This document shows, in pieces, positions 33,587-37,623 of a stretch of 40,934 nucleotides of DNA. The stretch's first letter is position 1. The number at the start of each line of letters is the position of its first letter. The stretch is taken from the NCBI GenBank assembly GCA_016875395.1, contig VGRF01000035.1:1-40934 (forward strand), written 5' to 3'. The position numbers and the translations under genes are program-made. The DNA is from Deltaproteobacteria bacterium (GTDB lineage: Bacteria; Myxococcota_A; UBA9160; UBA6930). The notes below the pieces were generated by a model. It was not told where the DNA came from. It saw nothing but the letters and a program-made list of their open reading frames with translations, and ran no database searches.

Positions 33587-33609
33587 TGGAGCGCAGCGTA
33601 GGCCCCGTG

Positions 33610-33696
33610 GCAGAGGAAATCGCGTGCGCCAAACCGGGGACGTTCCGCAAGTAAGTAAAGAAACTCCCGCTTTACCTTCTTGCGGAACGTCCCCGA
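33610..33696. repeat. Tandem hairpin repeat, copy 1 (87 bases)
   Basis: First of two 87-base copies that differ at five positions and start 131 bases apart. A perfect 16-base stem, GGGGACGTTCCGCAAG (33637-33652) with its inverse at 33680-33695, encloses an inner GTAAAG/CTTTAC stem. It follows a 22-base lead beginning at 33610. The GGGGACGT core is shared with the repeats at 8904 and 25986. No gene of its own is visible in 33587-33895. Confidence 0.82.
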
Positions 33697-33740
33697 GGTG
33701 GAGCGCTCCGCTTCACGCGCCGCGGACGCTTGTGAGCCCC

Positions 33741-33827
33741 GCAGAGGAAATCGCGTGCGCCAGACCGGGGACGCTCCGCAAGTAAGTAAAGAAGCTCCTG
33801 CTTTACTTTCTTGCGGAACGTCCCCGA
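33741..33827. repeat. Tandem hairpin repeat, copy 2 (87 bases)
   Basis: Second copy, 131 bases after copy 1, with the same lead, outer stem and inner GTAAAG/CTTTAC stem. Compared with copy 1 the inner arm pairs better here (ACTTT instead of ACCTT), while the outer left arm has one change (GCTCC for GTTCC). The 44 bases between copies are unrelated to the stem. The two copies occupy most of the gap between the P450 start and the PQQ dehydrogenase stop; the flanking genes are co-directional. Confidence 0.82.
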
Positions 33828-33895
33828 GTGCGCGGCTTCGCCTCCCCGAGTGCCCCGCTTCGGGTGCGCGACGCTTCGCGCGCGCGAACGCTCGT

Positions 33896-35869
33896 TCACT
33901 CCGGCAGCGCGAACCCCAGCAGCCAGTCGCCGCGCTCGCTCGGGATGCTGGTGTGGCCGCCCGCGGCGATCACCACGAACTGCCGGCCGCCGGGCCGCGC
34001 GCGGTAGGTCAGCGGGTTCGCGTGGGCGCCGGCGGGGAGGTGCGCGCGCCAGAGCTCGGCGCCGCTCGCGGCGTCGAAGGCGCGCAGGTAGCCGTCCATC
34101 GCGGCGCCGATGAAGACGAGACCGCTCTGCGTCGCGAGCGGCCCGCCCATTCCCGGCGGCGCCCACGGCAGCCAGAACGGCCACGGCGCACTGCCACGCG
34201 TGGTGCCGAGCGGTGCGCGCCACGCGACATCGCCGTGCGCGAGGTCGATCGCGACCAGCTCGAACCACGGCGGCTTCGTGCACGGGATGCCGAGCGGCGA
34301 AGTGAACACGCGCTGGATCGCGGCATACGGCGCGCCCGCCATGGGCACGAGCCAGCGGTCGCGCGTGCGCGGGCCGAAGGCGAGGGCGTGCCCGCGCGGC
34401 ACGAGCTGCTCGATCATCGCGATGCGCGACTGCGCGAGAAACAACAGCTCGCGCCCCGGGTCGAGCGCGCTGCCGCCCCAGTTCACGCCGCCCGCGACGC
34501 CGGGGAACTGCACGGCGCCGGCGAGGCTCGGCGGCGTGAAGGCGCCCTCGTTGCGCGACGCGGCCAGCAGCTCGCGGCACGCGGCGCGGTCCCAAGGTGT
34601 TAGGCCGAACAGGTCTTCCTCGCGCACGCCGTGCGGATGGAGCGGGGGCGGAAACGTGGGGAAGGGTTGCGTCGCCGCGGTGCGCTCCTCGGCCACGTCG
34701 GTCTGCGGCACCGCGCGCTCCTCGACTCTGTGCAGCGGCTCGCCGGTCTCGCGATTCAGCAAGAACACATGGCCCGCCTTCGTGGAGACGGCGAGCGCTG
34801 GCGCGCCCGCGTGCTCGAGCAGCGTCGGCTGCGCGCCCACGTCGTAGTCCCAGAGATCGCGGTGCACGGTCTGAAAGCGCCACACGACTTCGCCCGTCGC
34901 GCCGCGCAGCGCGATCACGGCACTGCGGTAGTGGTCGATCGCGCCGCGCGTGTCGCCGCGAAAGAAGTCGTTGCTCGGGTTGCCCGTCGTGATGAAGAGC
35001 AGGTCGCGCGCTTCGTCCGCCGCGAACACGCCCCACGCGTTCGGCGTGCCGCGATGGAACTGCGGCGAGCCGTCTGCCGCGGCTGGAAGCTCGGGCGTGC
35101 CCGGCGGCGCTGGATCGAACGCCCAGCGCAGCGCGCCCGTGCGCGCGTCGAAGCCGCGCACGACGCCGCCCGCGATGTCGAAGCGTTGGTTGTCCGATAC
35201 TTGGTGCCCCGTCGCGATCACGTCGCGGATCGCGGTGGGCGGGGAGGTCACGCGCACCTCGCCGGGCGAAACCGCGCCGAGCCCGCGCTCGAGCTCGACT
35301 TCCCCGTTCGCCCCGAAGTCCGCGCACGGCCTGCCGTTCTTCGCATCGAGCGCGATCAGCCGCGCGTCGTTCGTGGCGGTGAAGACGCGCACCGCGCAGG
35401 CCGCATCGGGGGCGGCTGCGGGGTCGTGCCACAACGTCACGCCGCGGCACACGAGGCCGTGGCCGTCGCGCTCGAGCGCGGGATCGAAAGCCCAGCGCGA
35501 GCGACCAGTTTCGGCGTCCACCGCGAACACGCGGTTGAACGGGGAGCATAAGTAGAGGGCGCCATCGTGCAGGACGGGCGTCGCCTGGAACGACGTGCGC
35601 AGCTCGCCGCTCGGGTCCCAGTCGCCGGTGCGGAAGCTCCAGGCGAGCTCCAGCGCACCCACGTTCGCAGGCGTGATCTCGCCGAGCGCCGAGAACTTCG
35701 TGCCGGCCGCATCGCCGCCCCAGTGCGACCAGCCCGCGGCCGGCGCGCTCGGCTCGCGCTGGAAGCTCGGTGCGCCGCACGCCGCAAGCGCGAGAGCGCC
35801 GACTGCAAGCGCGAGGCCGCAAGCACTGCGCAGCCGCGCGCGCAGCGAGCCGCAGGCGAGCGAAGTCAC
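33896..35869 (-). CDS. PQQ-dependent dehydrogenase lipoprotein (quinate/glucose dehydrogenase type)
   Basis: A 657-residue quinoprotein. Residues 1-30 are a lipoprotein signal ending LAAC (C31), so it is anchored to a membrane in the periplasm. The eight-bladed PQQ propeller is indicated by WGGDAAGTKFSALGEITPANV, FQTVHRDLWDYDVGAQPTL, LFGLTPWDRAACRELL, GGVNWGGSALDPG and GGPLATQSGLVFIGAAMDGYLRAFD. Those blocks match membrane glucose and quinate/shikimate dehydrogenases, but the N-terminal five-helix domain of those enzymes is missing. Electrons would go to a cytochrome or quinone. GTG 35869 overlaps the stop of the upstream heme-motif protein (GTGA). Confidence 0.88.
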   Translation of the reverse strand: MTSLACGSLRARLRSACGLALAVGALALAACGAPSFQREPSAPAAGWSHWGGDAAGTKFSALGEITPANVGALELAWSFRTGDWDPSGELRTSFQATPVLHDGALYLCSPFNRVFAVDAETGRSRWAFDPALERDGHGLVCRGVTLWHDPAAAPDAACAVRVFTATNDARLIALDAKNGRPCADFGANGEVELERGLGAVSPGEVRVTSPPTAIRDVIATGHQVSDNQRFDIAGGVVRGFDARTGALRWAFDPAPPGTPELPAAADGSPQFHRGTPNAWGVFAADEARDLLFITTGNPSNDFFRGDTRGAIDHYRSAVIALRGATGEVVWRFQTVHRDLWDYDVGAQPTLLEHAGAPALAVSTKAGHVFLLNRETGEPLHRVEERAVPQTDVAEERTAATQPFPTFPPPLHPHGVREEDLFGLTPWDRAACRELLAASRNEGAFTPPSLAGAVQFPGVAGGVNWGGSALDPGRELLFLAQSRIAMIEQLVPRGHALAFGPRTRDRWLVPMAGAPYAAIQRVFTSPLGIPCTKPPWFELVAIDLAHGDVAWRAPLGTTRGSAPWPFWLPWAPPGMGGPLATQSGLVFIGAAMDGYLRAFDAASGAELWRAHLPAGAHANPLTYRARPGGRQFVVIAAGGHTSIPSERGDWLLGFALPE

Positions 35870-37623
35870 CGGGCCGGATCGAGGCGAATCACGACGGGCT
35901 GCCCGCGCTCGATCTGCCACGCGGGCGAGTTCGAGTTGCTCGTCCAAACGCGGCCCTCGGCGTCGAAGTCGAGCTCGCGCGTGTACGTCACGCGCGTCGG
36001 CAGCGGATACACCGTGAAGCGCTTCGCGTCGGGCTCGTAGCGAATCAGCGTGTCGCTGTTCGTGCCGCACACCCACACGTGCTGCGTGACGGGGTGAATC
36101 GCGAGCGCGTACGGCGTCTCGCCCGCGAGCGGCTGCGTCGGCAGCGCGATCTGCTCGAAGTGCTCCGTCGCAGGATCGAACCACGCGATGTGTCCCGTCG
36201 TGAAGCTCGGGATCCAGAGGCGGCCCTTCGCGTCGAAGCGCAGGCGCCGCGGGCCGGGGAACGGCGTCTCCCACAGCTTCACGGCGAGCGTCTCGGGATC
36301 GATGCGGCCGATGCGGTTCTCGTTCAGCTGCGAGAACCACACGCCGCCGTCGGGCGCGATGTCGATCCCGTAGGGCACGGGCATGTTGAAGCCGTCGGCG
36401 GACTCCGAGGCGTCGCCGCGCAGGTTGATCGCGTCGAACTTTTCGTCGAGCCAGAACATCGCCGGCATGAGCCGCAGCACGACTTCCTGCGCGAGCGTGC
36501 GCGCGGGCAGCCGCACGTGGGCTTGCTTGCTTGTTACGGGATCGAAGCGCCCGACGTGGTTCGAGGCGCTCATCGTGTACCAGATGCGCCCCTTGCGATC
36601 GAAGCGCAGCGTGTGCGGATAGATCCCGTCCGCGACCTCGTGGATCGCAAACGTCTTCGACTTCGGATCGAAGCGCGCGAGGCGATTGCCGATCGCGAGG
36701 GTGATCCAGACCGCGCCGTCGGGAGCGACCTGCAGCGAGTGCGGGCCGACGTGCGCGCTCGAAGCCTGCGACGGCGGGCGGTCTTCGCCGCCGAAGATCC
36801 CACCGAGCGCGACGCCCGCGACCTCGACGGGCCATGACTCGCGTTGGCCGTCGCCCGCGCGCGGATCGAGGCGAAACAGTGCGTCCTGTGCGCCATCGAC
36901 CGAGTAGAGCGTCCCGTCCGGGTGCGCGATCACATCGTGCTGCATCGAGGCGCGACCACCGAGGTCCCACTCCTCTATGACGGCGCGGCGCACCTCGGCG
37001 GGCGGCGGCGGCGCGAAGCGCTCCGCGTTCTCCCAGCCGCGGGTGAGCGCCGGCACCGCGTGCTTCGGGTCGTATGCCGCGTTGAACAGATCCGGCACGC
37101 GCGCGCGCAGGGCGCTCGGCAGCATCGCGCCGCGCCGGCCCATCAGCGCGAGGATCTTCTCCCAGTCCTCCGTGCTGCGAACGCGCCGCGTCCACGGCGC
37201 GCCCTGCTGGTGGCAGTACGTGCACTCGCGCTTCAGCAGGTGCTGCTCGCTCGCGCCGAGGTCGCGCATCGCGAGCGCGTACCAGTGGTGCGCGGGAAGC
37301 TGCGCGGCGACCTCGCCGGCGCGCGTGTGGCGAGTCGCGCGCAGCTCGAGCGGGCCGCTTGTTACGGCGTCGAGCCACGCGTCCTCCCAGCCGATGCGCC
37401 GCGCGCGCACGCGCCACGCGTCGCCACCCTCCGGCGTCGGCAACACGAACGCGCCGTCATCCCCGCTGAACACCGTGACGCGATAGGCCGGGTCGCCGCG
37501 CTCCGCGGTGACGTGCGCGCCCGCGATCGGCGCGCCGCTCGCGGCGTCGACGATGCGCCCGCCCAGCTCGGCATGCGCGAGCGCGGGCAAGAGCGCGAGG
37601 GCGAGTGCGGAGCTGCGACGCAT
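35866..37623 (-). CDS. Exported fusion: CarboxypepD_reg-like domain, CxxCH heme motif, streptogramin-lyase-like propeller
   Basis: A 585-residue secreted protein (signal peptide 1-18, ending AHA). Residues 19-97 form a carboxypeptidase-regulatory-like beta sandwich (GGRIVDAASGAPIAGAHVTA). Residues 134-138 read CTYCH, the covalent c-heme signature, in a short helical segment with methionines nearby (M161, M167) as possible sixth ligands. From about 225 on, repeats of the form IDIAPDGGVWFSQLNENRIGRIDPET mark a Vgb/SMP-30-like beta-propeller. It is translationally coupled to the PQQ dehydrogenase, so it may pass electrons from it or bind its substrate. ATG 37623 is chosen at the signal peptide start; no other start fits. 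Confidence 0.85.
   Translation of the reverse strand: MRRSSALALALLPALAHAELGGRIVDAASGAPIAGAHVTAERGDPAYRVTVFSGDDGAFVLPTPEGGDAWRVRARRIGWEDAWLDAVTSGPLELRATRHTRAGEVAAQLPAHHWYALAMRDLGASEQHLLKRECTYCHQQGAPWTRRVRSTEDWEKILALMGRRGAMLPSALRARVPDLFNAAYDPKHAVPALTRGWENAERFAPPPPAEVRRAVIEEWDLGGRASMQHDVIAHPDGTLYSVDGAQDALFRLDPRAGDGQRESWPVEVAGVALGGIFGGEDRPPSQASSAHVGPHSLQVAPDGAVWITLAIGNRLARFDPKSKTFAIHEVADGIYPHTLRFDRKGRIWYTMSASNHVGRFDPVTSKQAHVRLPARTLAQEVVLRLMPAMFWLDEKFDAINLRGDASESADGFNMPVPYGIDIAPDGGVWFSQLNENRIGRIDPETLAVKLWETPFPGPRRLRFDAKGRLWIPSFTTGHIAWFDPATEHFEQIALPTQPLAGETPYALAIHPVTQHVWVCGTNSDTLIRYEPDAKRFTVYPLPTRVTYTRELDFDAEGRVWTSNSNSPAWQIERGQPVVIRLDPAR

Follow-up and report, generated by a model that had tools for sequence, protein, structure and literature searches.

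Does the exported fusion protein encoded at this locus form a dedicated periplasmic pair with the PQQ-dependent dehydrogenase encoded beside it, or does it have a role of its own? The window (the whole stretch of 40,934 nucleotides that was analysed) belongs, as a single contig, to the draft genome G000 (4.5 Mb, 96% complete). On its minus strand, the gene for the fusion protein (hereafter, A; 585 aa, 35866..37623, ATG start, TGA stop at 35866-35868) is followed by the gene for a PQQ-dependent dehydrogenase lipoprotein (hereafter, B; 657 aa, 33896..35869, GTG start), and the two share the four bases GTGA (35866..35869), in which the stop codon of A (TGA, 35868-35866) and the start codon of B (GTG, 35869-35867) interlock. 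A divergent MFS gene adjoins A, with 90 bases between. The two open reading frames and their overlap, from which the initial annotation set out, are thus real. Homologues of A and of B are each found at full length in dozens of genomes, with 50-65% identity, and in ten loci besides the window the two genes likewise overlap or are separated by a short gap (-10 to +66 nt), indicating that the arrangement goes beyond chance.

A family search alone sees in A no more than a streptogramin-lyase-like and carboxypeptidase-regulatory-like protein. From its N terminus, A comprises a likely signal peptide (residues 1-18, MRRSSALALALLPALAHA; 37570..37623, minus strand, as are all coordinates below for A and B), a carboxypeptidase regulatory-like beta-sandwich (residues 20-88; 37360..37566; Pfam PF13620 CarboxypepD_reg, 5.2e-9), a helical stretch with the motif CTYCH (residues 134-138; 37210..37224) inside a predicted heme c domain (residues 104-198; 37030..37314), and a seven-bladed propeller with the Vgb lyase fold (residues 208-584; 35872..37002; Pfam Vgb_lyase, 2e-24), in agreement with the domain content first read from the sequence. 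Homologues of A are present in 52 of 98 related genomes, and more occur elsewhere in the phylum. One homologue (L035) belongs to Pseudomonas sp. N040, a culturable carrier. Our literature search for this domain combination returned nothing, nor did we find published biochemistry on A or on the partner protein X introduced below.

B matches the Pfam PQQ family at 1.4e-208 and is covered by TIGR03074 at profile positions 148-783 only, scoring 665 bits, under the family cut-off of 833; by this profile, the five-helix N-terminal membrane domain is absent, and a lipobox (LAAC, residues 28-31, ending at Cys31; 35777..35788) is present, bearing out the initial description of a glucose/quinate-type quinoprotein that has exchanged its membrane part for a lipid anchor. 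The same loss and the same lipobox are also seen in B copies far from A, including a paralogue in the window genome; they are common across the B subfamily and not peculiar to the A-B pair. In an alignment with Escherichia coli Gcd, D341 of B (34847..34849) corresponds to the catalytic base D466 and K364 (34778..34780) to the PQQ contact K493, and both are invariant in 44 of 44 B homologues, as are W279 and R142. The Gcd residues R266, D354, W404, D466, K493, D730 and H775 are kept in B, most of these columns being invariant among the 44 homologues; Gcd H262 falls in an alignment gap and N607 is not kept. B has the hallmarks of the glucose/quinate family, a quinoprotein propeller that retains both the catalytic Asp and the Lys that binds PQQ. 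We found no PqqC or PqqE above cut-off in the window genome (96% complete), whereas PqqC is present in 44 of 98 relatives, suggesting that, barring an assembly fault, B must obtain its PQQ from an external source or else lie idle. E. coli Gcd also relies on external PQQ. The presence of A does not clearly follow PQQ synthesis (26 genomes with PqqC, 20 without, p 0.09).

The initial annotation proposed a coupled periplasmic pair, and the strongest rival to the reading we arrive at below takes this furthest: A would be the dedicated electron acceptor of B, its heme taking electrons from the reduced PQQ of B and its propeller serving for docking. Linkage to the dehydrogenase does recur. A is followed by B on the same strand, often with overlap, at 11 of 43 core loci, and B lies nearby in another arrangement at three of the 43, where about 0.3 linked loci of 45 would be expected by chance. 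The A-linked B genes form one clade in the B tree; members of a second B clade precede A, in the order B-X-A-cytochrome c, and a third faces distant A homologues, adding two further types of association. The architecture of B points the same way, in that Gcd-type enzymes contact quinone through their membrane part and B, which lacks it, would need another acceptor; PQQ methanol dehydrogenase with its cytochrome cL is a precedent (PMC9456337). However, B is not found near most A homologues, and many B homologues occur without A. Of 91 genomes from the class, 42 encode both proteins, four only A, 31 only B, and 14 neither. Within the linked B clade, the place beside A was lost twice, and at locus L038 A is directly followed by the gene that comes after B in L051 and L062, indicating that B dropped out there and A stayed. 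A dedicated acceptor also leaves the invariant propeller pocket described below unexplained, and the window genome has no recognisable genes for the two PQQ synthesis proteins named above. The A-B association is true but secondary, and has been lost repeatedly; we consider it rather unlikely that A exists to serve B, and possible that B does supply A with electrons in the lineage represented by the window.

A different protein fits A better as a partner than B does. This protein (hereafter, X) is small and exported, often carries a lipobox, and is encoded outside the window, in the window genome at G000:C6:3223-3717, unlinked to A. Across the same 91 genomes, 41 have both A and X, five only A, one only X, and 44 neither; Fisher statistics for this association are overstated because the genomes are related and not independent, a problem that does not touch the contrast between X and B. 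The distributions of A and X show matching patchiness even inside single families. X lies within 1.5 kb of A (<=1.5 kb), divergent or adjoining, in 34 genomes, and is present but unlinked in seven, the window genome among them. Some of the five A genomes without X may reflect gaps in draft assemblies. Beyond the class, X has weak matches only, and a likeness to DUF2135 suspected by eye was not confirmed, with searches returning only weak PPC-domain matches. Given that A at L038 has no B and that the presence of A across genomes tracks X instead, the PQQ dehydrogenase does not hold up as the defining partner, and the emphasis moves from it to X.

Soluble cytochromes are a further recurrent neighbour. 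In one A clade, a class I cytochrome c gene lies directly downstream of A (L046, L048, L054, L059, L060 and L061, with more found by search), often in stop/start contact with it. The gene order of this clade is (B)-X-A-cytochrome c, with B optional, and in L054 and L061 all four genes form a single run. A has several redox neighbours that can replace one another, and B is one of them. We also considered a GMC oxidoreductase with its small subunit, which lies near A or X at several loci, as a third partner and rejected it, as the subunit gene, found in 66 of 98 genomes, occurs regardless of whether A is present.

An AF2 model of A (five sequences, mean pLDDT 77.9) has its best structural match for the propeller in 2qc5 (Z 31.7, 295 residues aligned, rmsd 1.9), covering all seven blades, and other propellers score lower (Z 25-27). 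Among 60 near-full-length homologues of A, 19 of them distant and with quite different neighbours, H295, Y418, R459, Y505, D524 and R549 are conserved in all 60, and H229, D230, H337 and R460 in 59. Seven of these residues, H229, H295, H337, Y418, R459, Y505 and R549, stand at the inner-strand starts of successive blades, from which, by blade order and by analogy with other propellers, we infer a ring of polar residues around the top-face opening of the central channel. This ring is as invariant as the heme motif, suggesting that A probably carries out chemistry or binds a ligand of its own, and the invariance of the ring in all gene contexts argues for a role of A beyond that of collecting electrons from B. 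The propellers of N2O reductase and carotenoid cleavage dioxygenases carry metal-binding histidines at inner-strand, top-face positions (PMC8916777), and thiocyanate dehydrogenase has a copper site inside its central tunnel (PMC9456337); by this analogy, the pocket of A might conceivably hold a metal. Plasmid homologues match the propeller part alone (from residue 216), and the two whose surroundings were read have no adjoining redox genes. Among the candidates for a fusion of A with a PQQ dehydrogenase were open reading frames of 1242 and 1170 residues that include an A-like part; on inspection they are not such fusions.

The propeller also matches the SMP-30/gluconolactonase profile, and together with the Vgb match this raises the alternative that A is a catabolic lyase, lactonase or hydrolase acting on the product of B (e.g., a lactone), with the heme structural or regulatory. 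Glucose-type PQQ dehydrogenases do produce lactones, and beyond the class the neighbours of A resemble those of a pathway gene, with an epimerase/SDR on one side and an MFS transporter on the other, or else a TPP enzyme and an SDR next to it; the divergent MFS gene in the window is in keeping with this. The catalytic residues argue otherwise. The Vgb set comprises H228 in blade 6 and E268-P-H270 in blade 7; A has no E-P-H and does not keep this set (H228, E268, H270). The active site of Vgb is on blades 6 and 7 (PMC8916777). On an end-to-end pairing of the blades, the equivalent inner-strand positions in A hold Y505 and R549; a sequence-only alignment of A with Vgb slips by one blade. Linkage to cytochrome c in one A clade points to redox chemistry, and an invariant CxxCH is hard to account for in a hydrolase, leaving this alternative unlikely.

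The heme motif varies just as little: C134, C137, H138, G141 and R146 are found in 60 of 60 near-full-length homologues, and W154 and M161 in 59. We looked for homologues that lack CxxCH and keep the same neighbour, a combination that would speak against the motif, and found none. The profile of the heme domain has its best PDB match in 1jmx_A, a weak one (E 0.0056), and PF09098, the QHNDH alpha heme domain, is matched weakly by 17 of 26 A members (best E 2.4e-4), the A sequence of the window by itself giving no match. A is exported, carries a CxxCH conserved across its family as c-type cytochrome domains do, and the window genome also has genes for cytochrome c assembly. CTYCH is thus likely a real heme site, as the invariance of CxxCH implies, and H138 and M161 (37141..37143) are the probable axial ligands, M161 being a candidate by its conservation. 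Structure prediction is less informative here: the models of A contain no heme and are uncertain at CTYCH, the full model having pLDDT <50 at residues 1-15 and 136-141 (the motif region), and the heme domain folded alone gave a low-confidence apo model with no PDB match at E <= 0.001. This low confidence and the missing cytochrome fold would suit a zinc or disulfide motif in a binding or scaffold protein, an explanation that we regard as very improbable in view of the profile likeness to a true heme-binding domain, the conserved downstream W and M, the export of A, the cytochrome c assembly genes and the linkage to cytochrome c.

Building on the observed domains and their conservation, the co-occurrence of A with X, and the recurrent linkage to B and to cytochrome c, we tentatively favour a reading, held at somewhat less than even confidence, in which A is a periplasmic redox protein in its own right, combining heme and propeller, and B a lineage-specific dehydrogenase of the same pathway. 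A would carry one covalent heme c, attached at CTYCH and probably ligated by H138 and M161, joined to the Vgb-fold propeller, whose top central pocket, lined by invariant His, Tyr and Arg, would bind a substrate, a metal or another ligand. The heme would carry electrons into or out of this pocket and on to a soluble cytochrome c, and A would work with X, encoded elsewhere in the window genome. In the lineage of the window, B, predicted to be lipid-anchored in the periplasm and to be co-translated downstream of A, would act in that pathway by oxidising a sugar- or alcohol-type compound, with the heme of A as a possible further recipient of its electrons. A bolder proposal, which we consider doubtful at present, is that A and X represent an undescribed type of periplasmic heme-propeller oxidoreductase, in which a three-His pocket, perhaps with a metal, is wired to the protein's own heme c, assisted by X and served by exchangeable electron partners, a PQQ dehydrogenase in one lineage and a soluble cytochrome c in another. 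Conservation points to a heme plus a second, propeller-borne site in A, and co-occurrence singles out X as a specific, uncharacterised partner, so that two or three proteins would suffice to test a redox system in the periplasm of a large group that is mostly uncultured.

Each part of this system has a known counterpart from which it departs. A shares the seven-bladed propeller of virginiamycin B lyase (Vgb; 2qc5, 2z2n) and adds N-terminal beta-sandwich and heme domains to it; the site on blades 6 and 7 of Vgb (PMC8916777) has been replaced, and an invariant His/Tyr/Arg ring of its own distinguishes A. The alpha heme domain of quinohemoprotein amine dehydrogenase (PF09098; 1jmx, 1jju) resembles A in its CxxCH...W...M...G pattern, whereas A has a single heme motif and a propeller fused to the heme domain, and the match is weak (E 0.0056); a gene for the CTQ subunit was sought among the immediate neighbours of A. 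The three invariant histidines of A stand at propeller positions comparable to those in N2O reductase and carotenoid cleavage dioxygenases (PMC8916777), a likeness of position only, for which we claim no sequence relation. B spans the whole quinoprotein part of the membrane-bound glucose/quinate/shikimate PQQ dehydrogenases (TIGR03074; E. coli Gcd) and differs from them in its missing N-terminal membrane domain, its lipobox and its score below the cut-off. In two known pairs, PQQ methanol dehydrogenase with cytochrome cL and thiocyanate dehydrogenase with cytochrome c552, a propeller enzyme in the periplasm hands its electrons to a cytochrome c that is a separate protein (PMC9456337); here, unlike in those pairs, the candidate cytochrome, A, is fused to a second propeller, and its linkage to the dehydrogenase is facultative.

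The window genome (G000) encodes a 688-residue paralogue of A, the exported protein that combines a CarboxypepD_reg domain, a CTYCH motif and a Vgb-fold propeller, at L078:5293-7347 (G000:C19). The paralogue has a CxxCH motif, and no PQQ dehydrogenase gene adjoins it. At L076, L131, L134 and L138, in genomes from different classes, A-type genes adjoin one gene for a thiamine-diphosphate enzyme and another for an epimerase-type SDR, a grouping that possibly represents a separate catabolic cluster. A longer A-like protein of ~1080 residues (L077:5356-8598) carries Cys-rich repeats C-terminal to its propeller.

The window genome’s copy of X, a small exported protein that co-occurs with A across genomes, is located at G000:C6:3223-3717 (L140), where it adjoins a gene for a CusF/SCO1-type copper protein; nearby is a gene whose product resembles glucose/sorbosone dehydrogenase and has a CxxCH motif. 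A CusF-like gene is also present near X at L142. P450-like genes are found repeatedly in the vicinity of A or X, at L038, L053, L054, L055, L141 and L146.

Within the window, a cytochrome P450 gene (32390-33586) lies downstream of B, the PQQ dehydrogenase lipoprotein gene, on the same strand, and the interval between them contains a palindromic element in two tandem copies (33605-33828), each of 88 nt and 94% alike, with the sequence GGGGACGTTCCGCAAGTAAGTAAAG ... CTTTAC.TTCTTGCGGAACGTCCCC. Because the core of this palindrome was found again in G000, in two further palindromes near cytochrome c assembly genes (L148), the element looks like a dispersed repeat of the REP type.
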